Shown here piece after piece: positions 27,345 through 51,445 of a stretch of DNA of 64,000 nucleotides. The notes beneath the pieces were generated by a model that was given only the letters and a program-made list of their open reading frames with translations, searched no databases and was not told the origin of the DNA. The position numbers and the translations under genes were made by a program. The first letter of the stretch is position 1. Each line of letters begins with the position of its first letter. Source of the stretch: Candidatus Wallbacteria bacterium (GTDB lineage: Bacteria > Muiribacteriota > JAQTZZ01); assembly GCA_028687545.1 (NCBI GenBank), contig JAQTZZ010000013.1, positions 1-64,000 on the forward strand, given 5' to 3'.

Positions 27345-27400
27345 TACCATACAGGCGGTTATTTATTGCATAACGCCTTTCCTTGTGATTGAATATTGGC

Positions 27401-29653: not shown

Positions 29654-31890
29654 GGACAATCATCGCCCTTTTATTACTGTTCATCCAGTGCGCTTCAGCG
29701 GAGGACCTGCCTGCAGTCCTGCATGGAAAGCTCGTGGAACTGGGAAAATCCTATACAAGGACTTCAGCAGGGAACAGCGGGATTCTCGAACGGGTGAAAA
29801 CGATCCTCGCTAAAAAAGGCATTGCAGAAAGCGAATACAGGATTGAACTTTATCCCGAATCCGTGGATGTGCTGATCAGGGCTAAGAACGACAAGATCAG
29901 GGACGAAGTCTATTATACTTTCCATGATGTGGAAATCTATTATTTCGGCTCTGTCCAGACCAGGACTTTTACACTTCAGTATGCTTCTGCCAAGGACGTG
30001 GCTGCCACGCTGAGCAATATCTATGCCCCGCTTTCCTTTTCCCAGCAGGACGGAAAAACTGTAATCAGGAGGCAGGATGCCCAGAATGACGTGTCAGCCG
30101 ACTTGCGCACCAATTCCCTGGTGGTGACTGCCCCGCCCTGCGTGATGGACGGCATCAGAGAAACGATCCTGGCCCTTGACAGGCGTACGACACAGGTGAT
30201 GATCAAAGTGCTGATTGCCGAGGTCTCCCTTGATGAGTCCAGCCAGTTCGGGATTGAATGGAACATGCTGGACAGCTCTCTTTTCGGCGGAGAAAAGGAA
30301 ACCACCAACACTAAAATCGATTTCGGAAACCAGACCCAGGACAAGCAGGATGAGCTGATGGGTTTGAAGTATTCCATACTGAGGGAAGACAAAATGCGGG
30401 CCATGCTGCAGGCCCTGCAATCCTCCTCCAGAATCGACGTGCTTTCATCGCCCCAGCTGGTGACAGCCAACAACAATCAAGCTTATTTCGAAGAAACAGT
30501 CAAGGTGCCGGTCGAGAACACCACCACTACTGCTACAGGTGTAATCAACACTTCCATAGATTACCAGGAGATCGGGATCAAGCTCAATGTGCGGCCGCAG
30601 GTCAATCCGGATGAAAACATCATGCTGGACGTTGAACAAACCATTCAGAATATTCTGACCTTTACTAATGTCCAGAATGCTCCCACTTTTTCCAACAGGG
30701 TGGTGAAGACCAAAGTGCTGGCCAGGGACGGCCACACAGTCGTGATCGGCGGCCTGCTGAAAGACAATGTCACCATCAACCGGAAAAAAGTTCCCCTGCT
30801 AGGCGACCTGCCGCTTGTCAAGGACGCGTTCAGAAGAAACACCAGAGAGACCAGCAAAACCGAACTGATGGTATTCATCACACCACAGATTTTCAAGACA
30901 GATATGAAAATGGAAGAGGTCATTCCCAAGCTGCATACTCCTGAACTCAAGGAAAAACTCAGTAAAATCTCAGATGATTTCCTGACAATCAGGGAATCAG
31001 AAGGGCCAAGGGAATTCTATGTGATCGATGTCAACGGAGATGAACTGCTTCTAAATCTCCGTAAAAGCGACGAAGTGCGGATCGGAAGCGAATTCAGAGT
31101 GGTCAGGCCCGGGCAGCAGTACTTTGATCAGAAAACCAACCGGATGGTGACAGGAGAAGAGCAGAAAATCGCCAGGATCAAAATCATGTCGATCAGGGAA
31201 AGCACTTCACTGGCATCTGTGATCTTCGTAATGGAAGGCGAAAAAATCCAAAAAGGGGACCGGGTGCGGCGCCCTGACGACAGCAATTTCGCTTTCAGCG
31301 AGTTCAAGGTGCAGGAACTGGAGATAAAGCTTGATCTCAGGCTGGATAGCACCGCAAAATTGATCGCTGTCCTGAAACTGAAGAATATCAGCAGTTTTCC
31401 TGCGATGAAAACAGAAGAACAGGAGGGAACCTCCGGTGAAGTCAATCTCTCCATTAAAAAAGGTGAAGAATGGATTCCTTTAAAGACTGTCAGAACATCT
31501 CCGGCAGAAGACAGTTATAAAGGTATGATCTATTTCAACCGCTGGATTCAACCCGGTGAAGAGTTCAGCATGAAGATCGAATATGTCGCAGCAGCCGGAG
31601 CGTTTTGTAACGTCAAAGAGAAATGCCTTACGGAAATCAAAGACCTGAGCAGCTTCGATCCTTTTGAGATGAATTTTGGTCCATATTCCGATGACTGCAA
31701 GGTCAATGTGGTAATCCATAATCCTGGAGAACTGCTGGTGCGTGACTTTGATTTCAAGCCATTTGTGATGACACACTCCGATAAAACCACTTCCCTGATC
31801 TGGACCCATATCGGGGCCCCATTGAGAATAAAGGGCAAAACCAGATTCAAGGACCCGCAAGCAGTCTTGAAAAACTTACTTGAACAATAA
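29650..31890 (+). CDS. Secretin (type II/IV-like outer-membrane channel), copy 2
   Basis: 746 residues, collinear with copy 1 and clearly a tandem duplicate that has diverged. It starts with TTG inside the stop region of copy 1 and has a signal peptide (MRTIIALLLLFIQCASA). Secretin landmarks are VMIKVLIAEVSLDE and VVIGGLLKDNVTINRKKVPLLGDLPLV, with ELMVFITPQIF closing the core. The same C-terminal extension is kept (LRKSDEVRIGSEFRVV...IQKGDRVRRP). Two secretin paralogs in one operon may form mixed rings or serve two machines. A radical SAM gene begins right after it. Confidence 0.85.
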   Translation: MRTIIALLLLFIQCASAEDLPAVLHGKLVELGKSYTRTSAGNSGILERVKTILAKKGIAESEYRIELYPESVDVLIRAKNDKIRDEVYYTFHDVEIYYFGSVQTRTFTLQYASAKDVAATLSNIYAPLSFSQQDGKTVIRRQDAQNDVSADLRTNSLVVTAPPCVMDGIRETILALDRRTTQVMIKVLIAEVSLDESSQFGIEWNMLDSSLFGGEKETTNTKIDFGNQTQDKQDELMGLKYSILREDKMRAMLQALQSSSRIDVLSSPQLVTANNNQAYFEETVKVPVENTTTTATGVINTSIDYQEIGIKLNVRPQVNPDENIMLDVEQTIQNILTFTNVQNAPTFSNRVVKTKVLARDGHTVVIGGLLKDNVTINRKKVPLLGDLPLVKDAFRRNTRETSKTELMVFITPQIFKTDMKMEEVIPKLHTPELKEKLSKISDDFLTIRESEGPREFYVIDVNGDELLLNLRKSDEVRIGSEFRVVRPGQQYFDQKTNRMVTGEEQKIARIKIMSIRESTSLASVIFVMEGEKIQKGDRVRRPDDSNFAFSEFKVQELEIKLDLRLDSTAKLIAVLKLKNISSFPAMKTEEQEGTSGEVNLSIKKGEEWIPLKTVRTSPAEDSYKGMIYFNRWIQPGEEFSMKIEYVAAAGAFCNVKEKCLTEIKDLSSFDPFEMNFGPYSDDCKVNVVIHNPGELLVRDFDFKPFVMTHSDKTTSLIWTHIGAPLRIKGKTRFKDPQAVLKNLLEQ

Positions 31891-37682: not shown

Positions 37683-40103
37683 ATGGCTGACAAGAATAAA
37701 AAAAACCTTCAAGACAAGACGCTGATCGAGGATCGCACTATCCTGGAATCAGACCGTACACTGGCCGGAAAAACTGGCGATCCCGGGCACAAACTGTCCA
37801 GTTTCAGGGATTATTCAGTGCTGGAGCTGCTGCCTGCCGCGGGATCAGAAGCAGACATCTACAAAGCGGCAAAAAACGGTGAAGTCAGAATTCTGAAGCT
37901 ATACAGATTCGGAAACAATCCCAATCTGGAAGCTTTGAAGAAGATCCACGAAATCAGCGGCAAATTTCCAGCTGATGTGGTCAGGATCTTCGAATCGGAT
38001 TTCGACGAGGAATTGAAGCGTTACTATGAAATCATCGAATATCTCCCGCTTGGATCACTGAGAGAACTTTTTGACATGCTGCGGGGTAACGACCGCCTTC
38101 TGATTGATGTGATCCGCTGCTTCAACAATGGACTCAGGCTGCTGCACTCCAATAATCTGCTGCACCTGGACCTGAAACCTTCCAACGTGATGCTGCGGAC
38201 TCTGGACCCCTTGAAACTTGTTTTCACAGATTACGGAGTTTCTTCCGTGATTGATGATGAAATCTCCAGAAAAATGACGGTCAACCTGAAAGGCACTCCC
38301 ATTTACTGGTCCCCGGAAGCTTTCACTCAGATCGTAGGCCGCGAGTCAGACTTCTGGTCTCTGGGCATGATTGTGCTGGAAATCCTGCTCGGCAGGCATC
38401 CCCTGCAGGGGCAGGATATGCGGGTAATCATGTATACTCTTGCCACCAAGGGGATCGATGTGGATCAGTCTCTCCCTGACAGATATCAGCTGCTTCTGAA
38501 AGGGCTTTTAACTCGAAATCCCAGAAAGCGCTGGGGCTATGATCAGGTAGCCCGCTGGCTGGCCGGGGATTCGGAAATCCCGGTCTTTTTCGATTTCTGC
38601 CAGGAAATCAAGGGCCTTCAAAAACCTTTCGGTTTCAGAGAAGCTGACTACCATTCCCTGGAGGAACTGCTGCATGCCTTTGTGCATGACGAAGACTCCT
38701 GGGAGACGGCTAAGATCATCATCGGACACGGATATCTCGAAGACTGGCTGAAGCGGAACGGCGAGTTCGACAAATGCGTAATCATCGAAAAGCTGAGAAA
38801 ACTTTCCAGGAATGACCTGGATTTCCTGCTTCTGAAACTGACCCTCACTTTTTTGCGTGGCACTGGATTTGTAGTTTTCGGTAAATTGATCAGTTTCCAG
38901 AGCGTTTATCAGATTACCACCAGGGCTTTAGAAGGCAAGTGCACTCCAGGCGAAACCAATGTGATCAAATCTGTGATTTCAGGAGCGCTGCTGACTTATT
39001 ATACTGATTACCTGACTTCGATCCAGCGTGACCCTGAAGGGGACGAGTTCTGCCTGCTGCTGCGGGTGATGAAATTCAATGTTCCCAAGATGCTGTTTGA
39101 AGACAGCCTGAACAGTCTGCTGGAGATCTTTGAATTCTGGTGGAAACCCCAGGAGTTCATATTTCCTGGAAACTGCGGAATCAAGGAAAAGATCGCCATG
39201 TTGAAAAACCACGGCGAACTTCTTCTGCGCAAGACCGAGCTCGAGGCCCTGTCTGAGAAGTACTATCTGCCGCTCGAAATCATGGAAAACCTGGGGGCCA
39301 GTCAGCCGGATGTGGTGGTGGATTATTTACGAATCCTGCAGAAGCTGCGCCAGGATGACTCGCTGATCGAAAAAGCTAAAATCAAGGAATCAGTGTTTTC
39401 TGTCAAGAAATATGTGGAAATCGGCAAGTTCCGGAAGAACAAGATCGACCTGTTTCTGCTGAGCAGGCTCCCGCTCCTCTCACAGCATTTATTCGCAGTC
39501 AGATTCAAGACTTACGAATTCAAGATGCTCAGGGAGTATCTCGAGATCCTGAAAGGCTGCGATCTGGAATGGACCAGAGCGGACAAGGAAGCCATCGACG
39601 ACCTGGCCGAGAGCATGGAACCAAGGTCTTATCAGACCAGGAAGTATTTTTTCGCCTGCCTGAACGGACTGGTCTTCGGCTGGGTCTTCGCCATGTTCGG
39701 CATTCTCTACCTGGATTTTCTGGCAGGAATTAAATACTATATTCCTAATCCCAGTTCCTCTTCCGGGATGCTGGTGCTGGGGTTGGGATTTCTGGTGGGG
39801 ATTGTCCGCAGTTTTGAGGAACCGGAAGGGGAAAGGCTCAACGAATTTGTGAGATGGTTTCTGGCAAGTTCGCTGGTGCTGTTCGCTTTTTTCCTGTTGA
39901 TGTGCAGGCTGATTCCATGGAGCGGACCCTATGGAGCAGCTGCAGTCGGGTTCCTGCTCGGCAGCTTTTTTTATTTTATTGTGAGCGAGTATTACACAGA
40001 GATCCGGGTCAGCAGGATTTACGACAAATACCTCTACCGGATACTTGCGGTCAGAAATCAAACAACAAGGGAAGTGAAAAATGAAATTGGAAAATCTGCC
40101 TAA
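37683..40103 (+). CDS. Membrane-anchored Ser/Thr protein kinase, family copy 4 (first gene of the AAA+/rSAM/FHA operon)
   Basis: 806 residues from the ATG at 37683. An upstream in-frame start at 37632 is less likely, because the paralogs begin just before the acceptor motifs. The N-terminus has EDRTILESDRTLAG. Kinase landmarks: RILKLYRFG, HLDLKPSN at ~160, SPEAF. The magnesium motif reads TDYGVSS, so DFG is DYG here only. The family middle (FEFWWKPQE, FLRGTGFVVFGKL) and C-terminal membrane helices are present. Its 3' end overlaps the AAA+ gene by 23 bp, which ties this paralog to a remodelling ATPase. Confidence 0.9.
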   Translation: MADKNKKNLQDKTLIEDRTILESDRTLAGKTGDPGHKLSSFRDYSVLELLPAAGSEADIYKAAKNGEVRILKLYRFGNNPNLEALKKIHEISGKFPADVVRIFESDFDEELKRYYEIIEYLPLGSLRELFDMLRGNDRLLIDVIRCFNNGLRLLHSNNLLHLDLKPSNVMLRTLDPLKLVFTDYGVSSVIDDEISRKMTVNLKGTPIYWSPEAFTQIVGRESDFWSLGMIVLEILLGRHPLQGQDMRVIMYTLATKGIDVDQSLPDRYQLLLKGLLTRNPRKRWGYDQVARWLAGDSEIPVFFDFCQEIKGLQKPFGFREADYHSLEELLHAFVHDEDSWETAKIIIGHGYLEDWLKRNGEFDKCVIIEKLRKLSRNDLDFLLLKLTLTFLRGTGFVVFGKLISFQSVYQITTRALEGKCTPGETNVIKSVISGALLTYYTDYLTSIQRDPEGDEFCLLLRVMKFNVPKMLFEDSLNSLLEIFEFWWKPQEFIFPGNCGIKEKIAMLKNHGELLLRKTELEALSEKYYLPLEIMENLGASQPDVVVDYLRILQKLRQDDSLIEKAKIKESVFSVKKYVEIGKFRKNKIDLFLLSRLPLLSQHLFAVRFKTYEFKMLREYLEILKGCDLEWTRADKEAIDDLAESMEPRSYQTRKYFFACLNGLVFGWVFAMFGILYLDFLAGIKYYIPNPSSSSGMLVLGLGFLVGIVRSFEEPEGERLNEFVRWFLASSLVLFAFFLLMCRLIPWSGPYGAAAVGFLLGSFFYFIVSEYYTEIRVSRIYDKYLYRILAVRNQTTREVKNEIGKSA

Positions 40104-42030
40104 ATGGGCTAGAGAGATTGTCAGATTCCTTTCGATCAGACCCCAGTTCGCACTCTGGGGAAACATCTATGACATCTACCCTTTTGAAAAGGACGGACGG
40201 ATCGTCACCTTTAAAATAACTGATTATCTGAGGGAAATTTTAAAAAGCGAGGGCTTTGACCTGATCCTGGAATATGAACCTCTTTATGGATTCTCAATGC
40301 TTGACGGAGATCCTGAAGTATTCAAAAAAATCATGGAAGGCAAAGTAGAACAGAAAGTATCTGAACACAATCCGCGAACTGCTCAGGGCATCGGCATGGC
40401 AGCGACTGCTGTGATGGCTCCAGTACTTGCCGTGGGTGCTGCGGCGATCAAGGGCACTGACTGGCTGATCTCCAGGAATAAACCCCTGCTCTGCTCCCTG
40501 TCCAAAGGATATGACATCATTGAGAAACTTACCCACAACGACCTGGCATATGTGGCTGTGATCCTTAAATATGTTTCAAGGCTTTCCGACATCTGCAGCC
40601 CTGTTGATCAAAGCGAGTTTTACTACCGGCTGTTCCGACTGCTGCACAATTCCAGCCCTAAGATGATCGGTGGCTCCCGCTATCCAAAATTCAATACCAC
40701 GATCTTCGTGATGGACAAGGAAAACGACATCCCTGCCTGGTTCACGATCGGGAACCCTAAAATGAAAGTGATCTCGATCCCCAAGCCGGACAATCAACTC
40801 CGGAAGGCCATCGTGCAGAACGTGGCTAAGAATCTGGGCGGATTTGAAACGATCGAGGAAGTCAAACGAAAAGATTACCTCTCTTTGTTCGTGGATCAGA
40901 CAAACGAGCTCTATGCCAGCGAAATAATTTCCATCGTCAACCTTGCCAAAAAAGAGAACATCTCCTTTGCAGATATCGGGGACGCAATCAAGCGCTATAA
41001 GCTCGGCATCATAGAAAATCCCTGGTCAAAACTTGATCCTGTTAAGATCAATGACTCTGAATCCATTCTGATGAAAAGGGTCAAAGGTCAACCCAGGGCT
41101 CTGCGCAAGGCTGCTGACATCATCAAACGTTCGGTCTACAATCTTTCCGGTTCTCAGTACTCCAAATTCTCCCAGAAACCGAAAGGTGTGATGTTCCTCG
41201 CCGGACCCACAGGAGTAGGAAAGACGGAGCTTGCCAAATCTTTGGCTGAACTGATCTTCGGTTCTGAGACCAGTTATGTGCGTTTCGACATGAGCGAATT
41301 CTCCAGGGAGCACACTGACCAGAGAATGATCGGAGCACCTCCCGGTTATGTCGGTTACGAAGTCGGAGGAGAGCTGACCAATGCAGTCAAGCAGAATCCG
41401 TTTGCAGTCCTGCTGTTCGACGAAATCGAAAAGGCACACCCTAAGATCCTGGATATATTTCTCCAGCTTCTCGATGATGGCAGGCTCTCTTCCGGCCGGG
41501 GTGAAACTGTTTATTTCTCTGAATGTCTAATCATTTTCACCTCTAATCTTGGAGTTTATGAAATCGGGCCTTCAGGCGAAAAAATCCAGCGGATCAAGCC
41601 TGAGATGGGTTATGAGCAGATCGAGCAGAATGTGCGCAACGCCATTGAGGATTATTTCAAGTTCACGATCCAGAGGCCTGAAATTTTGAACAGGATCGGC
41701 GAAAATGTGGTGATTTTCGATTATATCAGGAAAGAAGTGGCAGGACAGATCTTCGAAAAAATGCTTTCCAATGTGGTGGGAAAGCTTACTGAAACCTTCA
41801 GGATCGATATCAGAATGGAGCCTGAATTCAAGGAGAAATTGAGAAGCGTCTGCTGTGAAAATCTGGCCATGGGCGGGCGCGGCATAGGCAACAAAGTGGA
41901 GGAGATCCTGGTGAATCCGATTTCACGTTCATTGTTCCAGCTTTCAGCCAAAGAAGGGGAGATTTACACACTGACGGATATTGAAAAGGAAAACGGCTCA
42001 TGGCAGCTGAAAATGAAAAAAGTGGCCTGA
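40081..42030 (+). CDS. Clp-like AAA+ ATPase with unusual N-terminal region
   Basis: 649 residues. The C-terminal half is a ClpB/ClpA D2-type module: Walker A GPTGVGKTE (~375), FDMSEFSREHT, GAPPGYVGYEVGG pore-type loop, Walker B VLLFDEIEKAHP (~443), TSNLG sensor 1, then a ClpB small domain with MGGRGIGNKVEE. The N-terminal half lacks Walker A but has the ALWGNIYDIYPF pattern of larger ATPases with a degenerate first module. It also has an Ala/Gly-rich hydrophobic segment (~100-125, GMAATAVMAPVLAVGAAAIKG) reminiscent of that in the MSHAVV proteins. It overlaps the kinase gene by 23 bp and the radical SAM gene by 31 bp. A protein-complex remodeller acting on the kinase pathway is the inference. 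Confidence 0.88.
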   Translation: MKLENLPKWAREIVRFLSIRPQFALWGNIYDIYPFEKDGRIVTFKITDYLREILKSEGFDLILEYEPLYGFSMLDGDPEVFKKIMEGKVEQKVSEHNPRTAQGIGMAATAVMAPVLAVGAAAIKGTDWLISRNKPLLCSLSKGYDIIEKLTHNDLAYVAVILKYVSRLSDICSPVDQSEFYYRLFRLLHNSSPKMIGGSRYPKFNTTIFVMDKENDIPAWFTIGNPKMKVISIPKPDNQLRKAIVQNVAKNLGGFETIEEVKRKDYLSLFVDQTNELYASEIISIVNLAKKENISFADIGDAIKRYKLGIIENPWSKLDPVKINDSESILMKRVKGQPRALRKAADIIKRSVYNLSGSQYSKFSQKPKGVMFLAGPTGVGKTELAKSLAELIFGSETSYVRFDMSEFSREHTDQRMIGAPPGYVGYEVGGELTNAVKQNPFAVLLFDEIEKAHPKILDIFLQLLDDGRLSSGRGETVYFSECLIIFTSNLGVYEIGPSGEKIQRIKPEMGYEQIEQNVRNAIEDYFKFTIQRPEILNRIGENVVIFDYIRKEVAGQIFEKMLSNVVGKLTETFRIDIRMEPEFKEKLRSVCCENLAMGGRGIGNKVEEILVNPISRSLFQLSAKEGEIYTLTDIEKENGSWQLKMKKVA

Positions 42031-42620
42031 TCAATCTGATCCATTTCCCTGTGCTGACCCTTGGAATCGGGAAACGCATCGGGATCTGGTTTCAGGGCTG
42101 CTCAATCCACTGCCCTGACTGCATCGCGCGGCACACCTGGGATTTTTCCGAGGAGTACCGGATTGAGATATCTGAAGTGATTGTGTCTGTCAGGAAATAC
42201 GCTGCCGATTCTCCAGAAGGGATCACGATTTCCGGAGGCGAACCTTTTGATCAGCCTGAAGCTCTGCATGGACTGCTTGAAGGTTGCAGAAATGAAGGAT
42301 TTGAAGATATCATGGTTTATTCAGGATATGAATTTTCGCGGTTGCAAAAACTTTATAAAAAGACTGTTTCTCTGATCACGACTCTGATTGACGGCAGATT
42401 CGTGTCAGGAGACGCTACCAGGAGTGTCTGGAAAGGGTCTGAAAACCAGAAAATGCATATTATTACCCGGAAAAAGGGACTGCGTGAGAGATATCTGGCC
42501 TTCCGTGAAAGTGAAACAGGGAAGAGATCTTTGCAGATTGTGGAAAACAGTGGAAAAATATTTGTGGTCGGGATTCCTGACCAGAAAGACGCTGAGGTGA
42601 TCAAACATGGGCTTGTTTAA
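42000..42620 (+). CDS. NrdG-like small radical SAM protein (4Fe-4S single-cluster type)
   Basis: 206 residues. CSIHCPDC gives the Cx3Cx2C cluster motif, and ISGGEPFDQ is the SAM-binding motif of glycyl-radical activating enzymes such as NrdG. No glycyl-radical enzyme (NrdD, PFL) lies nearby, so activation of ribonucleotide reductase is unlikely to be its local role. Instead it overlaps the Clp-like AAA+ gene by 31 bp and originally overlapped the FHA gene. The final codons (KHGLV, stop) lie inside the left 66-bp repeat, so the protein is complete despite the insertion that follows. Confidence 0.85.
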   Translation: MAAENEKSGLINLIHFPVLTLGIGKRIGIWFQGCSIHCPDCIARHTWDFSEEYRIEISEVIVSVRKYAADSPEGITISGGEPFDQPEALHGLLEGCRNEGFEDIMVYSGYEFSRLQKLYKKTVSLITTLIDGRFVSGDATRSVWKGSENQKMHIITRKKGLRERYLAFRESETGKRSLQIVENSGKIFVVGIPDQKDAEVIKHGLV

Positions 42621-42638
42621 AATCTGTCCCTGCTGCGG
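42573..42638 (+). repeat. Left 66-bp direct repeat
   Basis: Begins attcctgaccagaaagacg and ends tgctgcgg. It contains the last codons of the radical SAM gene and a duplicated start of the FHA gene. It is identical to the copy at 45363. Confidence 0.9.
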
Positions 42639-42648
42639 ACACAATTAG
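42607..42648 (+). pseudogene. Truncated duplicate of the FHA-gene start
   Basis: This 5' copy encodes MGLFKICPCCG followed by two foreign codons and a stop. It matches the first eleven codons of the FHA gene at 45397 and is a by-product of the repeat flanking the insertion. Confidence 0.8.
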
Positions 42649-42733
42649 GTTGGGCGCAATCCTTTCGGCTACGCTGAAAAAGGAAGATACCAAGGATTTC
42701 AAGCTGATAGGGAATTCATTCCAGATTGTTTAG
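42638..42733 (+). pseudogene. Possible 3' fragment of an unknown gene at the left edge of the insert
   Basis: One frame runs open from the repeat junction for ~31 codons with a protein-like composition (LKKEDTKDFKLIGNSF) and then stops. It has no start and could be a gene tail captured at the insertion boundary, but chance is not excluded. Confidence 0.25.
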
Positions 42734-42863
42734 AAGTTCGTGGGAACAGGTGGCCATGGCAGGGTAGTAACAGTGTTAGACATACACTTAGCATTCAAAC
42801 TGAGCAAAGTGTAGGCCTGACACTCTGATCTGATCCAGCGGAAGCTGGAATCAAGGGAAGTTC

Positions 42864-42910
42864 GGGGTCATGTCGTTCCCAATTTCTCACCCTAACTACG
42901 ACTTGACCTC
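42864..42910 (+). repeat. REP-like imperfect palindrome, copy 1
   Basis: 47 bp with arms GGGGTCATGTCGTT and TACGACTTGACCTC around a 19-base loop; the arms can pair as a hairpin. Copy 2 lies 238 bp downstream with the same loop type (cccaatttct.accc). It lies in the ~450-bp gene-free stretch 42734-43187, which otherwise shows no gene. Confidence 0.6.
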
Positions 42911-43101
42911 GTCGGTAGGAGCTTTCGATTCTTAAGTTACCCAATATCCAGGTTGCTGCAGTTGCACTGGAAGCGGTAAGAGCACAATTCCGAACAATTT
43001 ATTATCATGTACTGATAATGTAGTGTTAACGAGTAGTATACGCTTAGTCAACGGTTCGTCAACGCTAAATTAACATTATATGATATAATATATACAAGAT
43101 C

Positions 43102-43148
43102 GGGGTCATGTTGTGCCCAATTTCTTACCCAAACCACAACTTGACCTC
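43102..43148 (+). repeat. REP-like imperfect palindrome, copy 2
   Basis: 47 bp with arms GGGGTCATGTTGTG and CACAACTTGACCTC. Relative to copy 1, TCG/CGA in the arms has become TTG/CAA, so both sides of a stem pair changed together. This compensatory change supports a selected or recently mobile hairpin. Confidence 0.6.
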
Positions 43149-43187
43149 GTCCAAATGCGATCAAAAACCATGTAGGGGGAATCCTGG

Positions 43188-43298
43188 ATGGCAATCGTAA
43201 AATGGAATCCAGCAATCGAATCGATCAAGGGGAAAGTCAAAGGTTTTGTCTACACCAAAAACGGGATCGTCAAAGCTGACTTGCTTAATCAACGATGA
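43188..43298 (+). pseudogene. 36-residue 5' fragment of a small hypothetical gene
   Basis: ATG frame reading MAIVKWNPAIESIKGKVKGF and ending VKADLLNQR. The opening resembles small phage- or accessory-island proteins that begin M(A)xVKWNP.... The frame stops after 36 codons and overlaps the start of the next frame, so it is probably a truncated remnant joined to other DNA near 43280. Confidence 0.35.
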
Positions 43299-43896
43299 TA
43301 ATTATCCAGTTGACAAAGCCCAAGAATGGCATCAATCTGAAGAAGACACTCCTCACTTTCAGTCTATGATGAAAAAAGTGCTTAAATATGAAAGATTTTC
43401 ATCCTTGGATAGAGAACTCCAATGGAAAGAATACATACGTTTAACTTACGGGGCTATCTGCGATATTGTCCATACGAAAGGACAAGAGGCAGCGCAAACT
43501 TATTTTCATTCTGTTATCAGTTCATCATTCGATGGAATCAATGTGATGAGTTTTGAGGAAAAAAGTTGTGCTGAGGCGTTAGATAGATTTCTCGAAGTTG
43601 TTGGACACATAGCTATCATGTTGTGCGCCAGCAATCCGATTATCACTGTCGGATTAGACCTTGAATCCAAATTCGGCCTTAATGGCCCTGTTTCGGGTTT
43701 TTTCAACCCTGATCAAGCTGCGCGTTTGTTTGAGTTGTTGCCAACCTCTTATAGAGAATTTTTCAAGAGGCTGCAAGAGAATGACGCTGAAGTGAAAGCG
43801 TGTCTTGATGGATTTAACAATCTGCCGGATATTACGGAAGAAGAGATAGAAAAACAGATGGGAAATGATTGTTTTAACATTGTAAAAATGGAATAG
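43246..43896 (+). CDS. Hypothetical protein, probably 5'-truncated or rearranged
   Basis: An open frame of 216 codons from a TTG; an internal ATG at 43366 would give 176. The first dozen codons are read in another frame from the preceding fragment, and protein-like composition begins at about CLINDDNYPVD. The body is acidic and mostly helical (LDRELQWKEYIRLTYGAICDIV, EEEIEKQMGNDCF). No family is recognised. It may be the 3' part of a larger gene brought in with the insert. The DUF1016 gene follows after ~70 bp. Confidence 0.4.
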   Translation: MSTPKTGSSKLTCLINDDNYPVDKAQEWHQSEEDTPHFQSMMKKVLKYERFSSLDRELQWKEYIRLTYGAICDIVHTKGQEAAQTYFHSVISSSFDGINVMSFEEKSCAEALDRFLEVVGHIAIMLCASNPIITVGLDLESKFGLNGPVSGFFNPDQAARLFELLPTSYREFFKRLQENDAEVKACLDGFNNLPDITEEEIEKQMGNDCFNIVKME

Positions 43897-43964
43897 CTGG
43901 TTAGAATCCAGGGAGGGCGGGGAAACGGGTAAGACTATCAAAGAAAATTTGAAGGGTATTGGAT

Positions 43965-45020
43965 ATGAGTTCTAAAACAACTTCCTACAGCGAGCTGTTT
44001 TCGCAGATCAGAAAACTGATTCTTTCTGCTCGTAAAGCAGTAAGCCGTAATGTAGATACGATCCAGGTTCTGACTTGTTTTGAAATTGGCCGTAGGATTG
44101 TGGAACATGAGCAGCAGGGGCTTAAACGTGCAGAATACGGCAAACAAATACTCAAGGATCTCTCTAAACGCTTGACTGATGAGTTCGGCAAAGGTTTTTC
44201 TGAGGATAACCTTACTAATATGCGTAAATTTTATCTTGCCTATCGTGAACAAAAACAGATTTCCGAGACACCGTCTAGGAAATTGGCAACGCTAAAAGAT
44301 ACGCCGGAAACACATGCACAGCTCACTCTCAGCTGGTCCCATTATGTTTTCTTGATTGGTGTTAAAGATGAAAATGCCCGCAGATTTTATGAAATAGAAA
44401 CCGCGCAGCAGGACTGGTCATTGCGTGAACTCAAACGACAGTTTGATTCCGGCTTGTATGAACGACTGGCGCTCAGTCGTGATAAGGCAGCAATCATGAA
44501 GCTGGCACAGGAAGGGCAAACCGTTTCCAATCCCAAAGATTTACTTAAAGAACCTTACGTTTTAGAGTTTCTTGGACTTGACGAGAAATCAAAATATTCT
44601 GAAACCGATCTGGAATCGGCAATTATTGATAAGCTGGAACATTTTCTGCTAGAACTTGGAAAAGGGTTTCTTTTTGAGGCACGGCAAAAACGATTTACCT
44701 TTGATGAAGACCATTTTTTTGTTGATCTGGTTTTTTACAACCGGCTATTGCACTGCTATGTATTGATTGATCTCAAAATCGGCAAGCTAACCCATCAGAA
44801 TATTGGACAGATGCAGATGTATGTCAATTATTTCGACAGGTTTGTAAAATCAGAAGATGAAAATCCTACTGTGGGAATTATTCTCTGCAAAAAAAAGCAC
44901 GATGCTCTGGTGGAAATCACCTTACCCGTAAATGCCAATATTTTTGCCTCTGAGTATCAGCTTTATCTGCCGACCAAAGAAGAATTAAAGCAGAAACTGA
45001 TGGATTGGGCGGAAGAATGA
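43965..45020 (+). CDS. DUF1016 (YhcG-like) PD-(D/E)XK nuclease-fold protein
   Basis: 351 residues from the ATG at 43965; a TTG at 43959 adds two. The N-terminal domain (RKAVSRNVDTIQVLTCFEIGRRIVEHEQQG...LSKRLTDEFGKGFS..NLTNMRKFYLAY) is the diagnostic DUF1016_N winged region. The C-terminal half carries the nuclease core: GFLFEARQKRF, FFVDLVFYNRLLHCYVLIDLKIGK (the D...xxDxK catalytic pattern) and PTVGIILCKKKHD. Family members are common in defence and mobile islands, often beside restriction genes. It is complete and lies inside the 66-bp-flanked insertion next to a DUF262 fragment. Confidence 0.9.
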   Translation: MSSKTTSYSELFSQIRKLILSARKAVSRNVDTIQVLTCFEIGRRIVEHEQQGLKRAEYGKQILKDLSKRLTDEFGKGFSEDNLTNMRKFYLAYREQKQISETPSRKLATLKDTPETHAQLTLSWSHYVFLIGVKDENARRFYEIETAQQDWSLRELKRQFDSGLYERLALSRDKAAIMKLAQEGQTVSNPKDLLKEPYVLEFLGLDEKSKYSETDLESAIIDKLEHFLLELGKGFLFEARQKRFTFDEDHFFVDLVFYNRLLHCYVLIDLKIGKLTHQNIGQMQMYVNYFDRFVKSEDENPTVGIILCKKKHDALVEITLPVNANIFASEYQLYLPTKEELKQKLMDWAEE

Positions 45021-45065
45021 AATTGACAGGACGGATAATGCAAATCCAATTTAAGGGAGTGAAAA

Positions 45066-45254
45066 ATGGAATCATTTGATTCTACAAAAAAGAGCCTATA
45101 TGAAATCCTCAAAGATGTTAAACTCGGTAAAATTCAGCTTCCTGACTTTCAGAGAGGTTGGGTTTGGGATGACAACCGAATCAAAGGAATTTTAGCAAGC
45201 ATTGCAAAATCATTTCCCATTAATCTTTCCTACGAAAAATTGACACTCTCTTAA
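45066..45254 (+). pseudogene. DUF262 (GmrS/GmrSD-like) N-terminal fragment
   Basis: 62 codons. KIQLPDFQRGWVWDDNRIKGILASI is the conserved N-terminal DUF262 motif (the (I/L)PxFQR.(Y/W).W pattern) of proteins related to the GmrSD restriction enzyme. Normal members run to several hundred residues. Here the frame leaves the family consensus after SFPI and stops, so it is a truncated remnant. A ribosome site (GGGAGTG) precedes the ATG, so a short peptide may still be made. Confidence 0.65.
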
Positions 45255-45279
45255 TGTTAACTAGAAATCGGAGGGCAAG

Positions 45280-45390
45280 ATGGAAAATGTAAAAGGAGAA
45301 TTTCAAGAAAATGTTCAGGGCAAAGTGGAAGTGGAGATAGGAGACGCTCCTTATCCTATGGCATTCCTGACCAGAAAGACGCTGAGGTGA
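45280..45390 (+). pseudogene. Short reading frame running into the right repeat
   Basis: ATG after a GGAGG ribosome site. 28 codons of acidic, protein-like sequence (MENVKGEFQENVQGKVEVEI...) run into the right 66-bp repeat and stop there after 36 codons. It appears to be the start of a foreign gene cut off by the insertion boundary. Confidence 0.4.
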
Positions 45391-45428
45391 TCAAACATGG
45401 GCTTGTTTAAAATCTGTCCCTGCTGCGG
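45363..45428 (+). repeat. Right 66-bp direct repeat
   Basis: Identical to 42573-42638. It carries the authentic FHA start codon (45397), and its first part duplicates the end of the radical SAM gene. Confidence 0.9.
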
Positions 45429-45858
45429 GACCAGGAATTCGACTGAAGAAATGATGTGCACTTACTGTCTGGGGGATATTTCCCACATCAACCCCTCGGA
45501 CGATTCCGAGTCTGTGGCAAAGGCAGAAGTGCAGGTTCCCGCTGCTCCGGCTAGCCTGGTTCTGATTGCGGCAGACGGCAGCAGGATCAGCCTCGGTTCA
45601 GGCGAAATCATAGGCAGGAGCGCGAAAGGCGCTGAGATTTTCCAAAAGGACAGGCAGCAGGGCAAGACTGTTTCCAGAAAACACGCCAGATTCAGCCAGG
45701 AGTCAGGCGGCTGGACTGTGACTGACCTTAATTCAGGAAACGGGACATTTCTGAATGACGCCAGGCTCACTTCAGGAGAGAAGAAAAAACTTAATGCTGG
45801 AGACAGGCTGAGTTTTTCCTCTTCCTCAGTCGAATTCACTGTGAAATTCGAAATTTGA
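45397..45858 (+). CDS. Zinc-ribbon plus FHA-domain phosphothreonine-binding protein
   Basis: 153 residues. The N-terminus has a four-cysteine zinc ribbon (CPCCGTRN...CTYC). Residues ~70-150 are an FHA domain: IIGRSAKGAEI, VSRKHARFS (the phosphate-binding Arg/Ser and structural His), DLNSGNGTFLND. FHA domains bind phosphothreonine. The natural ligands are plausibly the DRT-motif N-termini of the family kinases, the first of which heads this operon; that link is inference. Its ATG originally overlapped the radical SAM stop codon, and its own stop overlaps the next gene by 4 bp. Confidence 0.9.
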   Translation: MGLFKICPCCGTRNSTEEMMCTYCLGDISHINPSDDSESVAKAEVQVPAAPASLVLIAADGSRISLGSGEIIGRSAKGAEIFQKDRQQGKTVSRKHARFSQESGGWTVTDLNSGNGTFLNDARLTSGEKKKLNAGDRLSFSSSSVEFTVKFEI

Positions 45859-47972
45859 AGTTCTACCCGCATTTTCTTTTCCTGTTTGCACTTTTTCTTT
45901 CTGGCGCTGCGGGACTCATCAATGAGATCGTCTGGCAGAGAGCGCTCAAAATCTATTTCAGCGGGGCTGAGGCTGTTCCTGCCATGCTCGTAGTCCTGTC
46001 CTTCATGGCCGGGCTCGGGCTTGGTTCACTAGCAGCCGGTCGGCGCTCCCGCAATCTCGGAAATCCGGTCAGAGCGCTCAGTTTGATCGAAATCCTGCTT
46101 TTTTCGATCAATCTGCTGATCTGTCTGCTGCTTTCCCTGAATTTCGGGGACAGTCTGTATGCTGTTCAGCGGATGGCCCTGCTGACAGGCATTCCACTCA
46201 AAGTGGTCTATGGGGTGTGCTCCTTTTTACTGCTTTCAGTGCCCTGCTGCCTGATGGGTCTGACTCTGCCCATTGCGGCTGAAGTCTTTCAGCGGCAGTT
46301 CGGATTCACAGACAGGCGCAAACTGGATTTCCTGATCTTTTTCAATACGGCCGGGGCAACACTCGGGTGCCTGCTCTGCGGAATCTACTTTCTGCCGTAT
46401 CTGGGCCAGCTGAGAAGCCTGATCCTTGCTGCAGTCTGCAATCTGTCTGCTGCGGTGATCTTCGCGCTGCTGAAAAGCAACCGACCCTCATGTTGCGAAT
46501 CACCTTTACCCGCTCGTTCCACATCTGGATTGAAAAAAGAGGAAATCCTGGGATTTCTGCTTGGATTCCTGGCGCTTTCATATGAAATGTATCTGTTCAG
46601 GATCCTGCAGTTAAGCCATGGTCCGCTTCCATACACCTTCACAGTGATCCTGTTTTATTTCCTGCTTTTCTGGAACCTGGGGGTTTTACTGAACGAGTTC
46701 GTGCCAGGCGGTACGATCCCCTGCCTTGCAGCTGCCGGTGCCATGATCATCGCCATGCCCAGGGTTTTTGAATACGAGCGCTTCAGCCATCAATTCAGCC
46801 TTTTCTTCGGGATCACGATCTATTTTCTGCCCTGCCTGGTCTGCGGAATAGTGTTCGCGCGCATTCTCAAGCGGCATACTGAGCTCTGGGGAAGCGACGT
46901 CGGCAGATTCATGGGTCTGAACACTTTCGGGAGCTGTCTCGGGATTTTTCTGGTCACTATCTTCGGGCTGCAGCTGAACTTCGATTACCTGGGTCTGATG
47001 ATCGGAATCGGGTATCTGTCGGTCTGTCTCCTGGAATCAGATTATTCCAAGGCCAGGCTGAAATTTGCTCTGACAGCTTTAATCGTTCTGGAGATCGCCA
47101 TTTACTGCGCTGCCCTCTCGCAGCCTGTTGAAGGAACAGGTGCCAGAAGATACTTCGGCCGTGAGGGAGTGGTTGAAATCCTGCGTCAGAGCCTGCTGGT
47201 AATCTGGAACGGGCTCGGGCATTCATCCCTTTCTGTGAACCAGAACCATCTCGGGTCCGGGAACTGGTATCTCGGGGTGATCCCTTTTTTATGCCATGAA
47301 CCGGATAATTCGCTGGAAGTCCTGGTGGTCGGACTCGGGGCAGGAATCACTTCCGCCACCATCGCAAAATCCGGGAGTGTGGCGTCAGTGGACAATTATG
47401 AAATCAACGAAGTCCTCAAACTGATCCTGAGGGATTATCCTGATGGCACCTTGAGAGTAAGCGAGAATCCTAAGTGCAGGATTTTCTGGCAGGATGCCAG
47501 GACTGGACTTGCGCTCAATCCGAAGAAATACGACCTGATAGTGCAGCAGCCCCTTTATCTGATGCAGGCCGGCAGTTCCCTGCTCCTGTCACGCGAGTAT
47601 CTGTTGCTTCTCAAATCAAGGCTCAGAGAGCGCGGTCTGATCTGCATCTACTGTAACAGCATGGGCTGTCTGGAGCAGTATTATCTGGTGCTGAAAACCG
47701 TGCAAAGCGTTTTTTCCCATTGTCTGAGTTTCGGGGGTTTTTATCTTCTGATTGCTTCAGACTATCCCTTTGAATACACCAGGGAGAGCGTGATGTCCCG
47801 CCTGAGCGCGGATGATGAACTCTGCAGGGAGATACTGGGATATAAGATAGAGCAGGTTCTGAATTACATGGACACCCGGGAATTGTCTTACAGCTGCCCA
47901 TACCTGATCACAGATGATTCACCACTGGTTGAATATCCGGAAATAGTGAAGAAGCTGGTCAGGATCCAGTGA
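45855..47972 (+). CDS. Membrane protein fused to a spermidine-synthase-like domain
   Basis: 705 residues starting with TTG inside the FHA stop (4-bp overlap). The first ~430 residues contain about twelve hydrophobic helices, with the opening FLSGAAGLINEIVWQRAL typical of MFS/spermidine-synthase fusion proteins. The C-terminal part has a Rossmann methyltransferase-like fold: VLVVGLGAGITSATIA, the acidic VDNYEIN and YDLIVQQPL. The aminopropyltransferase active-site Asp-rich motifs are not clearly kept (QQP in place of the usual DxxDP), so polyamine synthesis is doubtful. As the last gene of the kinase/AAA+/rSAM/FHA operon it may be the membrane effector or a substrate. Confidence 0.8.
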   Translation: MKFYPHFLFLFALFLSGAAGLINEIVWQRALKIYFSGAEAVPAMLVVLSFMAGLGLGSLAAGRRSRNLGNPVRALSLIEILLFSINLLICLLLSLNFGDSLYAVQRMALLTGIPLKVVYGVCSFLLLSVPCCLMGLTLPIAAEVFQRQFGFTDRRKLDFLIFFNTAGATLGCLLCGIYFLPYLGQLRSLILAAVCNLSAAVIFALLKSNRPSCCESPLPARSTSGLKKEEILGFLLGFLALSYEMYLFRILQLSHGPLPYTFTVILFYFLLFWNLGVLLNEFVPGGTIPCLAAAGAMIIAMPRVFEYERFSHQFSLFFGITIYFLPCLVCGIVFARILKRHTELWGSDVGRFMGLNTFGSCLGIFLVTIFGLQLNFDYLGLMIGIGYLSVCLLESDYSKARLKFALTALIVLEIAIYCAALSQPVEGTGARRYFGREGVVEILRQSLLVIWNGLGHSSLSVNQNHLGSGNWYLGVIPFLCHEPDNSLEVLVVGLGAGITSATIAKSGSVASVDNYEINEVLKLILRDYPDGTLRVSENPKCRIFWQDARTGLALNPKKYDLIVQQPLYLMQAGSSLLLSREYLLLLKSRLRERGLICIYCNSMGCLEQYYLVLKTVQSVFSHCLSFGGFYLLIASDYPFEYTRESVMSRLSADDELCREILGYKIEQVLNYMDTRELSYSCPYLITDDSPLVEYPEIVKKLVRIQ

Positions 47973-48458: not shown

Positions 48459-49958
48459 TCAGGCCTCCTTTAAATCGGGCGGCGGGTAGCCGATGATCTC
48501 CTCTACCAGAGCAGGGTCGCGGATGATTCTGGGCATTTTACTGTGGCCAAAATCGGATTTTCTCTTCTCCAGCCAGGACTGGAATTTTTCTTTGTCCACG
48601 AATCTGACCTCAGCAGGGTCGAAGTTTTTATACAGCAGGCGGTACAGGCTGCTGTTTTCCTGAAGGTATTTGTCCAGTCTGGCTGAGATCCATTCCGGAT
48701 CATGCTTCTCCCAGGCTTCGTTCTTCTCAAATACCCAAAGGTACCTGGGTTTGGGACCTGTTTTTCCCAGCACTAAAAATTCCCCTGGCTGTGATTTCAG
48801 CTCAACAGATAAGTTTTCCACTGTTTTTTCAATTACGTGAATCGAAGTCTTCTCTCCTGTGAGATTCAATGTCAGGACTGTGCGGCCCATGATCTGGAAC
48901 AGCGGAATTTTCGGATCAAGACACTGGATCACGTCACCCAGTACATAGCTGAAAGCCCCGTTACCGGTGGTCACAGCAGGAACATATTCCACTCCTTCGG
49001 ACAGTTCGGTGATCAGTTTCCTCTGGCGGTAATTCTTGTTCTGGTAATCATCAAATGGGATGAATTCATAGAAATTATGGTCTGTGAAAAAAAGCATGGA
49101 TTCAGGATTATCCGGGGATTGATGCCCGAATATTCCTTCTGTGGCAGCATAATACTCTATGATGCTGACTTTCTTCCCCAGAGCTGCATAAATCTTGTCG
49201 TCGTAAGTACGATAATTGACGCCTGTACAATAGATCACTTCCAGATTTCTGGCAAAGCTCGCAAATTCAGACCTCGTGAAATAGGAATGCCTGGCTTTTT
49301 CCAGGAAGTCCAGAATCGATGCGGGAATCCCGAATATTGAGCCAATGGCTTTGCCTTTGATTTCCCTGGCAATGGTTCTTGTTTTCTCGTTCCAGTCCTG
49401 GATGTTGATGGTAGCAGGGCAGGGGATTATCCGGCGTTTCATCAGGTGAGGGGCTGCTTCAGCCAGAATTCCTGAGATCGGGCCGTAAGGTATTCCCCCG
49501 GTCGTCAGTCCCAGGGAACTGCAGCCTGAAATTGCCAGGATTTTTTTGTCCAGGACTTTTGAATTCGGGTATTTTTTTATGAAAAGGGAAAGAAGATAAA
49601 GCTCTTTTTTTCGGAAATCCTTCAGGATCGATCCTGGCACAGGAATCAGCTTGGGCTTGCCTGTAGTTCCTGTGGATATCCCGAAATGCCCTGCTTTCTC
49701 TCTGATCGCCGCGCCGGACCTGCCTGCAGCTTCCTGTTCCCACATTTCCCGGATGTCTTCATAATGCTGGATCTGGACCCTTTTCCAGTAATCTGAGACG
49801 CTCCTGATGCTGCCGAGGGAAAACTTTTTATAGATCTTTGTATCCCTGGAATCATCTATCCTGGACAGCAGGGCATTTTCCTGGAGCCTGAAAGTGTCTC
49901 CCTCAATCTTTCTGGAGAAGGCTGTGAAAATTCTGTTTTTAACAGCAGACCATTCCAT
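48459..49958 (-). CDS. GH3-family adenylating enzyme (acyl-acid amido synthetase-like), copy 1
   Basis: 499 residues. The ATP motif GISTGTTGKPKLIPV (~100) and the later YYAATEGIFG (~265) match the two nucleotide motifs of the GH3/JAR1 branch of the acyl-adenylate superfamily, and VTTGNGAFSYVLGDVIQ matches the third region. Plant relatives conjugate auxin or jasmonate to amino acids; bacterial substrates are mostly unknown. It overlaps its paralog by one base (TGATG), so translation is coupled. The two copies are similar throughout, pointing to tandem duplication. Confidence 0.85.
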   Translation of the reverse strand: MEWSAVKNRIFTAFSRKIEGDTFRLQENALLSRIDDSRDTKIYKKFSLGSIRSVSDYWKRVQIQHYEDIREMWEQEAAGRSGAAIREKAGHFGISTGTTGKPKLIPVPGSILKDFRKKELYLLSLFIKKYPNSKVLDKKILAISGCSSLGLTTGGIPYGPISGILAEAAPHLMKRRIIPCPATINIQDWNEKTRTIAREIKGKAIGSIFGIPASILDFLEKARHSYFTRSEFASFARNLEVIYCTGVNYRTYDDKIYAALGKKVSIIEYYAATEGIFGHQSPDNPESMLFFTDHNFYEFIPFDDYQNKNYRQRKLITELSEGVEYVPAVTTGNGAFSYVLGDVIQCLDPKIPLFQIMGRTVLTLNLTGEKTSIHVIEKTVENLSVELKSQPGEFLVLGKTGPKPRYLWVFEKNEAWEKHDPEWISARLDKYLQENSSLYRLLYKNFDPAEVRFVDKEKFQSWLEKRKSDFGHSKMPRIIRDPALVEEIIGYPPPDLKEA

Positions 49959-51445
49959 CAGGCCTCCATTTTTCCGATTATATCTTCAGCGATCCTGGGA
50001 TCTTTGATGATTCTTGGGATTTTACTGTGCCCTAAATCCGCATTCTTCCGTTCGAACCAGGCTTTGAAACTGTCCCGCTCTATCAGCAGCACCTGAGAAG
50101 GAGAAAAATTGGTGGGATAGAGCAGTTTATAAAGATTGTTGTGTTCCTGGAGAAAATGATCCAGCCTGGATGCGAGCCTCTCAGTTCCCTGGCTGTCCCA
50201 GATCGAGTTTTTCTCTATGACCCACAGATAGGACTGTCTGCCATTGATGGTCCTGCCTGTGACAAAAAACTCACCTGGTTCAGAGTTCAGTTCCCGAGAC
50301 AGACTCTGCACTGTTTTCTCCACCACCGAGATCGCGGTCTTTTCACCGGCCAGATTCAGAGTGAGCACTGTGCGTCCCTTGACCCTGAACAGCGGGACTC
50401 TGTGATCCACGCACTGGATCAGGTCTCCAAGGACATAGCTGAAAGTGCCGTTTCCGGTGGTGACTAACAGGGCATAATCTTCACCGTCTTTCAGCTGATG
50501 CAGTAATTTCCTGTTACTGTAGTCCTTCTGGAGATATTCGTGGAAAGGTATGAATTCAAAAAAAATCGTATCTGAGAAGAATTCCATTGAATCAGGGTCA
50601 ATTGCGGACTGATGGCCGAAAATACCTTCACTGGCAGCATAGTAATCCAGAAAATTCACTTTCCTGCCGAGCAGACTCTGAATTTTGTCCTGATAACTTC
50701 TGTAATTCACACCACTGCAGAAGATGGCTTCCAGATTCGAGGCGAAAAACTCAAAATCGCTTTTGGAATAGATGCCCTTAATTTTTTCCAGGTAATTGAG
50801 GATCGTAGCCGGGATACCTAAGATCAGCCCAATGTCCTGGTGCCTTGCCTGCTCCGCGATGGAGTCAGCTTTCTGGTTCCAGTCGCAGAGATTGATCACT
50901 TCGCTTGTGGGAATTCGTTTGTGCCTCATGAGCAGCGGTGAGCCTTCGGCCATTATCCCTGAAATTGTGCCATAGGGAATCCCGGACTGCGTTTTTCCCA
51001 GAATAGCGCTTCCGGTGATGGCGAGGTGTTTCTTGGAAAGAATTCTGGATTCGGGATGTGCTTTCAGATAAATGGAAACAAGCTGCATCCCGCGCCTGCG
51101 GAAATCCCTCAGCAGCTTTCTCGTGACAGGAATCAGCTTGGGGATTCCTGTGGTGCCGGTGGAAACAGCGAACTTGTGGATCCTGCTTCCGACAGTAACG
51201 TTTATGTTCCCTGTCGATTCCGAATCCCAGTATGGTTTCAGGTCCTCATAATGATGGACCGGTACTTTCTGCTGATAGCTCTGAGTCGATGAAATTTCTC
51301 GAAAGCCGTATTTTTTTCCCAGGACAGTCTCTGCCGAGTCATTGAGGCGGGCGAGCAGGGCTTTTTTCTGGAATTTGGCAGTACTGCCGTTTTTTTTTTC
51401 TGTAAACAACGAAAAAATACTGTTTTTAGTTCTTGTCCATCTCAT
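49958..51445 (-). CDS. GH3-family adenylating enzyme (acyl-acid amido synthetase-like), copy 2
   Basis: 495 residues and the first gene of the three-gene minus-strand unit. Motifs are the same as in the neighbour: AVSTGTTGIPKLIPV, YYAASEGIFG, VTTGNGTFSYVLGDLIQ, with RVKGRTVLTLNLAGEKT near the hinge. The paralog at 48459 is collinear. Two coupled copies may form a heterodimer or act on two related acids. Upstream (51446-51566) is AT-rich and probably holds the promoter, though no clear hexamers were identified. Confidence 0.85.
   Translation of the reverse strand: MRWTRTKNSIFSLFTEKKNGSTAKFQKKALLARLNDSAETVLGKKYGFREISSTQSYQQKVPVHHYEDLKPYWDSESTGNINVTVGSRIHKFAVSTGTTGIPKLIPVTRKLLRDFRRRGMQLVSIYLKAHPESRILSKKHLAITGSAILGKTQSGIPYGTISGIMAEGSPLLMRHKRIPTSEVINLCDWNQKADSIAEQARHQDIGLILGIPATILNYLEKIKGIYSKSDFEFFASNLEAIFCSGVNYRSYQDKIQSLLGRKVNFLDYYAASEGIFGHQSAIDPDSMEFFSDTIFFEFIPFHEYLQKDYSNRKLLHQLKDGEDYALLVTTGNGTFSYVLGDLIQCVDHRVPLFRVKGRTVLTLNLAGEKTAISVVEKTVQSLSRELNSEPGEFFVTGRTINGRQSYLWVIEKNSIWDSQGTERLASRLDHFLQEHNNLYKLLYPTNFSPSQVLLIERDSFKAWFERKNADLGHSKIPRIIKDPRIAEDIIGKMEA

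Follow-up and report, generated by a model that had tools for sequence, protein, structure and literature searches.

Bacteria frequently encode serine/threonine kinases and FHA proteins, for few of which a circuit is known. One described case, which operates alongside ClpV, is the threonine phosphorylation pathway of the T6SS (PpkA, Fha, and PppA); in Agrobacterium, Fha binds an N-terminal phosphothreonine of TssL that has been phosphorylated by PpkA (PMC3953482). A second described group is the vWA-MoxR/FtsH ternary conflict systems, which contain an AAA+ ATPase to which an FHA protein and a (pseudo)kinase are sporadically added; one subset also has a radical SAM partner (PMC7159879). In Pseudomonas aeruginosa, moreover, core defense hotspot 1 is flanked by a DUF4011 gene and a radical SAM gene (PMC10250203).

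This work presents an analysis of a 64,000-nt stretch (referred to here as the window) of a Candidatus Wallbacteria genome assembly of 4.54 Mb in 108 contigs. We consider it probable that the window encodes a widespread and so far undescribed system in its split form, which is anchored in the membrane, and that docking of an FHA adaptor at phosphothreonine gates a machine composed of an unfoldase and a radical SAM enzyme. Judging from the proteins that recur together, four components would form the core of this system: an AAA+ unfoldase of the Hsp100 type (AAA), a radical SAM enzyme resembling NrdG (rSAM), a coiled-coil protein (CC), and a protein with a kinase domain. An initial annotation of the same DNA held that no described system combines the families encoded here, and a literature search (with subscription journals and preprints outside its scope) retrieved none; no assigned role for any part of the system was found in that search.

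Organization of the locus

The initial annotation recognized a five-gene operon at 37683 to 47972, and all five ORFs are present on the plus strand, with families as claimed on the basis of matches to family models. The first gene (37683 to 40103; PF00069, E value of 1.4e-25) encodes a membrane Ser/Thr kinase with an N-terminal TLIE/TILE tail and C-terminal TMs at residues 663 to 681 and 726 to 744. An earlier TTG start is available at 37632, but the ATG at 37683 better matches the tails of the paralogs. The kinase is followed by the ClpB/ClpC-like AAA (40081 to 42030; AAA_2, E value of 1.8e-47) and by rSAM (42000 to 42620; Fer4_12, E value of 1.6e-27), which carries CX3CX2C, GGEP, and a C-terminal GIP. 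The last two genes encode a zinc-ribbon FHA adaptor (45397 to 45858; FHA, E value of 5.1e-16; ICPCC...CTYC) and a membrane MFS/spermidine-synthase-like protein (45855 to 47972). Neighboring reading frames overlap by 23 bp (kinase/AAA, 40081 to 40103), 31 bp (AAA/rSAM, 42000 to 42030), and 4 bp (FHA/fifth gene, 45855 to 45858). At the rSAM/FHA junction, the overlap was 14 bp prior to an insertion, with the old FHA ATG at 42607 to 42609 and the rSAM stop codon at 42618 to 42620. These overlapping frames are the basis for regarding the operon as a single expression unit.

Membership of the proposed five-gene set stood for the kinase, AAA, rSAM, and FHA genes and was withdrawn for the fifth. The spermidine-synthase-like protein scores 46.6 bits against NF037959 (fused MFS/spermidine synthase; cutoff of 40), and its nearest relatives are found in Riflebacteria genomes that lack this AAA. 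It was thus dropped as a system component and is a lineage passenger that is translationally coupled to the operon. Two tandem GH3/acyl-adenylate-like genes adjoin the operon on the minus strand (48459 to 51445), and an AMP-ligase/acyltransferase gene lies at 56070 to 58748 (both assigned by eye).

The functional cluster begins well before this operon, near 13.4 kb, with two pairs of CC and kinase genes on the plus strand. CC1 (13389 to 14921, GTG start) ends 11 bp before KIN1 (14933 to 17344), and CC2 (20029 to 21501) ends 8 bp before KIN2 (21510 to 23921); both CC proteins begin with MSHAVV and carry EWC at the C terminus. A further kinase gene, KIN3, follows at 24954 to 27344 (plus strand). 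Relative to the kinase at 37683, KIN1 is 49% identical over its length, KIN2 is 52% identical (E value of 2.7e-272), and KIN3 is 51% identical (E value of 1.1e-253). KIN1 has C-terminal TMs and a TxxD/E tail, RTIAEERTLNESERTLSD. The genome holds exactly four full copies of this kinase family, all of them within the window, two of which (KIN1 and KIN2) have a CC gene upstream. CC1 and CC2 are encoded about 18 to 27 kb away from the AAA and rSAM genes, and the presence of four kinase copies suggests several inputs into one AAA-rSAM module. Between the CC-kinase pairs, a different Ser/Thr kinase with apparent TPR-like repeats is encoded on the minus strand (17325 to 19928), its frame running 20 bp into the end of KIN1. 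A tandem pair of secretin-like genes (27389 to 31890, by eye) follows KIN3; other secretion genes were not recognized nearby.

An insert at the rSAM/FHA junction

The rSAM and FHA genes are now separated by a 2.7-kb insert (42639 to 45359) that lies outside the system and is missing from all relatives. It is bordered by two direct copies of a 69-nt repeat (42570 to 42638 and 45360 to 45428), which are identical at 66 nt. Neither gene is disrupted by the insert, since the duplicated stretch includes the rSAM end as well as the FHA start. The inserted DNA encodes a DUF1016/YhcG nuclease on the plus strand (43959 to 45020; YhcG_C, E value of 2.4e-54; PDC-S02, E value of 6.7e-144) and a truncated DUF262-like frame (assigned by eye from the translation); no integrase is present in it. 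As a whole, the insert occurs once in the genome, and short dispersed repeats are found at its ends, with copies elsewhere at 94% identity over 121 nt (contig C29) and 86% over 72 nt (C39 and C62). The 66-nt identical target duplication is much longer than transposon duplications usually are, and the insert may be an assembly artifact. An internal 56-nt repeat (42858 to 43151) is present in two copies that are 88% identical and 238 nt apart. Relatives from Nitrospirota, Muiribacteriota, and Hydrogenedentota lack the insert and have the same 14-bp overlap as the preinsertion window, and the overlap is exactly 14 bp in the insert-free loci L048, L049, L051, and L052. Judging from these relatives, the 14-bp overlap is the ancestral arrangement.

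Conservation of the gene neighborhood

To survey related loci, we used as a query the N-terminal half of AAA, which is absent from ClpB. Searching 84,980 species genomes yielded 78 usable loci, and a gene was counted as a neighbor if it was located no more than five genes away on the same strand. The kinase family was near AAA in 64 of the 78 loci, rSAM in 60, and the CC gene in 54, while an FHA gene was a neighbor in 10. None of these partners was present at 9 of the 78, for example in Riflebacteria. Among ClpB-type control loci, rSAM or the kinase family was found within 1.5 kb in 0 of 22. The AAA and rSAM genes are therefore neighbors across many phyla, contrary to the outcome that the initial annotation had named as refuting its proposal. 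For GC-rich loci, the longest ORF was taken as the gene, and the start is too early in some cases.

The system genes travel together in at least 10 bacterial phyla, which makes this a fixed-part circuit kept, among others, in laboratory-tractable species of Pseudomonas (for example, P. protegens, locus L104), the Burkholderia group, and Rhizobium. Translational coupling is retained as well, with relatives having AAA/rSAM overlaps of 22 to 34 bp followed by the 14-bp rSAM/FHA overlap. The closest relative with the gene set is another Candidatus Wallbacteria genome (locus L047), next to which the window is placed in the AAA tree (support of 99). Gene order varies. In L048, the order CC-kinase-AAA-rSAM-FHA forms a single run; L051 has AAA-rSAM-FHA-PP2C-CC-kinase, and L058 has PP2C-CC-AAA-rSAM-FHA-kinase. 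An Aristaeella plasmid (L128) encodes, in one run, a DUF4011 helicase-nuclease, a kinase, CC, a zinc-ribbon FHA protein, rSAM, AAA, and PP2C. The PP2C-type phosphatase that joins the operons in L051 and L058 is also present by sequence in L056, L065, and L066; in the host genome, none is close to the window operon and one is encoded elsewhere.

One explanation for the original five-gene observation is chance assembly of unrelated overlapping genes in a single lineage. The insert and the fifth gene show this locus to be open to unrelated genes, but the neighborhood, down to the 14-bp overlap, is kept between phyla, and we regard chance assembly as already refuted.

In some loci (L038, L039, L050, L059, and L060), the AAA relative is solitary, and AAA therefore also has uses that do not involve rSAM. 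Four solo relatives (L038, L039, L040, and L041) are located next to prepilin-like genes, with a KsgA-like gene also present in L038 and L039. Riflebacteria additionally encode a second AAA family, which occurs with rSAM and a CC-like gene in L044 and L045; in L046, its neighbors are FHA, CC, and, as judged by eye, a vWA-like gene. Because this second family pairs likewise, the core is older and more varied than the form found in the window. A Riflebacteria operon of the fused type described below (L043, 8891 to 15113) is apparently broken by frameshifts, with several parts lost or split. Outside of these genomes, E. coli genomes gave no match at the DNA level, phage records gave matches only to the Clp D2 part (none reaching 80% coverage), and viral contigs gave one match.

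The unfoldase and the radical SAM enzyme

AAA contains one active D2-type module preceded by a D1-like, degenerate N-terminal half that lacks a Walker A motif. The Walker residues are invariant in 21 relatives, and the second ring domain is intact, with the pore loop GYVG. AAA-family models match the D2 half only. The predicted fold aligns over its full length to the two-ring Clp ATPases ClpC and ClpB in Foldseek (519 to 725 columns; best E value of 9.8e-31, with a TM-score [TMq] of about 0.5). The N-terminal half is therefore a degenerate first ring domain. No protease partner for AAA is evident in the operon, as previously noted.

For rSAM, the CX3CX2C motif is present in 65 of 65 relatives, and the nearest solved structure is the PFL-activase 3c8f. 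In agreement with the initial annotation, neither NrdD nor another glycyl-radical enzyme gene was recognized in the window or in related operons.

These two proteins could also be taken as a quality control or stress module, in which AAA would remodel oxidized or misfolded proteins, rSAM would serve as an accessory repair enzyme, and the kinases would report stress. AAA is indeed a genuine Hsp100-type motor with a GYVG pore loop, and rSAM is of the activase type. Nevertheless, Hsp100 repair factors are not normally linked to helicase-nuclease proteins, nor are they so patchy in occurrence, and the host genome already encodes three Clp ATPases besides AAA. We therefore regard a quality control role as unlikely.

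The coiled-coil protein

The initial annotation missed CC, which is encoded in most of the operons and is 370 to 520 residues in length. Its members diverge widely; shared features are an invariant initial M1-S2 (often MSGPKVVRIV), an invariant LGY motif, an invariant Y, a near-invariant D, and a near-invariant C, the last located in a WC motif near the C-terminal end. CC1 and CC2 are 40% identical, and CC1 aligns with CC proteins from distant operons. No match to CC was found in Pfam, PADLOC, NCBIfam, or PHROGs. The AlphaFold model of CC2 (mean pLDDT of 79.6) consists of long helices and a C-terminal alpha/beta domain, and a comparison of this model to the PDB gave no match at an E value of ≤0.001. 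A fold assignment based on Foldseek was rejected, as the matches were weak and scattered (best E value of 0.7).

Owing to its constant company and the near-invariant C-terminal cysteine, CC is a candidate substrate of rSAM; the family as a whole is an obvious place to look for a substrate new to radical SAM enzymes. A separate proposal, that CC is a glycyl-radical protein, arose from the resemblance of its Gly-Tyr-x-V to the GYAV of pyruvate formate-lyase. That claim was dropped because LGYxV is a common helix-to-strand turn and the model places the motif at such a turn.

Split and fused kinase architectures

Two forms of the system can be distinguished by their kinase-domain protein. In the split form, to which the window belongs, the kinase is a separate, intact protein with a TxxD/E-rich tail and usually with C-terminal TMs, and a separate zinc-ribbon FHA protein is encoded. 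The kinase at 37683, for instance, has intact HLDLKPSN and DYG motifs. In the fused form, a single protein of ∼2,100 residues combines a zinc ribbon, a degenerate kinase domain, a helical region, an SF1 helicase, and an MTES_1575 nuclease, and no FHA gene is present. Fused proteins occur in Pseudomonadota, Verrucomicrobiota, Cyanobacteriota, and Chlamydiota, and nearly all fall into one branch of the AAA tree. A profile of the split kinases extends beyond the kinase domain into the fused proteins (best E value of 1.4e-97).

HxDxKPxN and D[FY]G are kept in 15 of 15 split kinases. Among the fused proteins, DFG is found in 0 of 48 and the catalytic K and N are both kept in 3 of 48, while the zinc-ribbon CxxC is present in 49 of 49; as the sequences are related, none of these split and fused counts represents independent events. 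The tails of the split kinases contain 35 TxxD/E motifs versus 11.3 in shuffled sequences (0 of 2,000 shuffles reached 35), a count that overstates independence, given that the 15 kinases are related and include the four paralogs of the host genome. For the fused proteins, the tails contain 71 such motifs versus 58 when shuffled (72 of 2,000 shuffles reached 71). Judged by motif, the tail of the split kinase is thus an acceptor of the FHA type, which bears out the acceptor-like repeats described in the initial annotation. The second Aristaeella kinase has TxxN repeats in place of TxxD/E. The kinase at L065 (1 to 2562) has a near-perfect tandem GRTVADSAASP in its N-terminal tail, an extreme TxxD acceptor tail.

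Read directly from the sequence, the phosphothreonine-binding motifs of the FHA adaptor (GR...SRKH...NGT) are intact, and its zinc ribbon is kept in most split-type relatives. On the simplest reading, the phosphothreonine-FHA link would achieve in trans what the fusion achieves in cis, namely, attachment of a zinc ribbon to the protein with the kinase domain. The two forms are in this sense a natural experiment, which suggests such a connecting role for the FHA adaptor. The notion of a membrane kinase cascade, as originally put forward, applies to the split form and does not extend to the fused form, in which the core is linked to a soluble helicase-nuclease with a degenerate kinase.

Under an anti-phage or anti-plasmid reading, sensing and switching would fall to the kinase and the AAA-rSAM pair; the fused form would release its helicase-nuclease against invading nucleic acid, and the split form would work by way of the membrane kinase and an abortive response. 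The helicase-nuclease half of the fused protein scores with the anti-phage families PDC-S37, ProA, Hhe, and MkoA. Occurrence is patchy (7 of 200 Pseudomonas genomes), plasmids of Rhizobium and Aristaeella carry the genes close to transposases or a recombinase-like gene, and AAA clades common to Chlamydiota, Pseudomonadota, and Cyanobacteriota suggest transfer. The DUF4011 gene (protein PA14_RS11765) and the radical SAM gene that border hotspot 1 of P. aeruginosa (PMC10250203) belong to the core of all isolates, which would be atypical for an accessory defense gene. These two genes are candidate members of this operon, and in strain PAO1 the genes PA2725 (chaperone), PA2726 (radical activating enzyme), PA2727, and PA2728 resemble it. 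Further arguments against immunity are that the flanks are mostly ordinary (a handful of defense matches in 117 upstream and 118 downstream ORFs), that PADLOC has no AAA, rSAM, or CC model, and that the window form lacks the helicase-nuclease. In our estimation, an immune function is a real possibility whose chances fall somewhat below even. It concerns purpose and is compatible with the phosphothreonine-FHA-gated unfoldase-rSAM explanation.

Proposed mechanism

For the gated unfoldase-rSAM machine that we favor, the following sequence of events is proposed. On receipt of a signal, the membrane kinase would become active and phosphorylate its own tail at threonines. These phosphothreonines would serve as docking sites for the zinc-ribbon FHA adaptor, which would recruit AAA and rSAM. 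Binding of Fha to TssL provides a precedent for the self-phosphorylation and docking steps. AAA would pull either on CC itself or on a protein bound to it, such that a site is exposed for modification by rSAM, and the change made by rSAM would relay the signal. In operons having a PP2C, this phosphatase would reset the kinase tail. Signaling by the kinase domain would no longer be needed in the fused form, because the zinc ribbon is covalently joined to the helicase-nuclease, the likely effector.

Radical modification may, as the initial annotation inferred, be under phosphorylation control. A more specific proposal, which we put forward only tentatively, is that a phosphothreonine switch allows an Hsp100 unfoldase to present CC to rSAM within an immune or stress system not previously described, and that FHA-docked active kinases have been exchanged in evolution with degenerate kinases that are fused to a zinc ribbon and attached to a helicase-nuclease. 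If the proposal is true, this would be, to our knowledge, the first case of an unfoldase handing a protein to a radical SAM modifier. It would join phosphothreonine signaling, Hsp100 unfolding, and radical chemistry, three processes not known to cooperate.

Comparison with known systems

The individual enzymes resemble characterized families but fall short of the corresponding models. AAA shares with ClpB, ClpC, and ClpA a D2-type AAA_2 module, the small domain, and the GYVG pore loop; it differs from these in lacking an M-domain, in its degenerate D1 half, and in having no IGF-type ClpP loop in its sequence. Its score against the ClpB equivalog model is 243.7 bits, compared to a cutoff of 1,232. 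Similarly, rSAM shares CX3CX2C, GGEP, and GSxNQ with NrdG and the pyruvate formate-lyase activating enzymes but has an extra C-terminal segment with a conserved GIP end, and it scores 87.5 bits against the NrdG equivalog model (cutoff of 126.1). The kinase domain is similar to that of the MADS kinase MAD6, but its score of 67.8 bits is far below the cutoff of 460, and the other MADS genes are absent from the window operon.

For the fused-type relatives, the SF1 helicase (DUF4011/AAA_11/AAA_12) and nuclease half is shared with MkoA (Mokosh), Hhe, ProA, and PDC-S37. These matches mainly concern the helicase-nuclease half, and the families have no AAA, rSAM, or CC partners in the libraries. Assignment to Mokosh type I fails because the window kinase lacks a helicase and the fused relatives match MkoA only in part.

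The T6SS pathway shares more of its cast: a membrane-linked Ser/Thr kinase, an FHA reader, an Hsp100 ATPase, and, in relatives of the window, PP2C. The kinase and FHA protein form a pair with intact catalytic and phosphothreonine-binding motifs, as in the T6SS module, and in both cases the reader docks (here, by prediction) within an N-terminal region, at a phosphothreonine produced by the kinase. This overlap raises the alternative that the system regulates a surface or secretion machine, much as ClpV and the threonine phosphorylation pathway do. Two secretin-like genes just behind KIN3 (27389 and 29650; assigned by eye, with weak phmmer matches to a secretin-like locus) and the prepilin-like neighbors of solo AAA relatives in Riflebacteria point in the same direction. 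However, no Tss structural genes were recognized by eye among the window ORFs, AAA falls below the curated ClpV cutoff (TIGR03345, 212 bits versus 885), and the pilin/secretin link is missing in other phyla. The system described here also adds rSAM and CC, neither of which belongs to the T6SS pathway. Regulation of a secretion machine is, accordingly, quite improbable.

With respect to the vWA-MoxR/FtsH systems (Kaur et al. 2020, PMC7159879), AAA belongs to another family, being Clp-type, and rSAM to another context. No vWA component was recognized in the window, the vWA-like gene of L046 being part of a distant paralog operon. Of the published ideas, these systems and the phosphorylation pathway of the T6SS come closest, but features that were tested or are missing here speak against assignment to either. 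While the single domain families are already known, the libraries and literature searched contain neither the combination nor the CC family nor the swap between split and fused forms.
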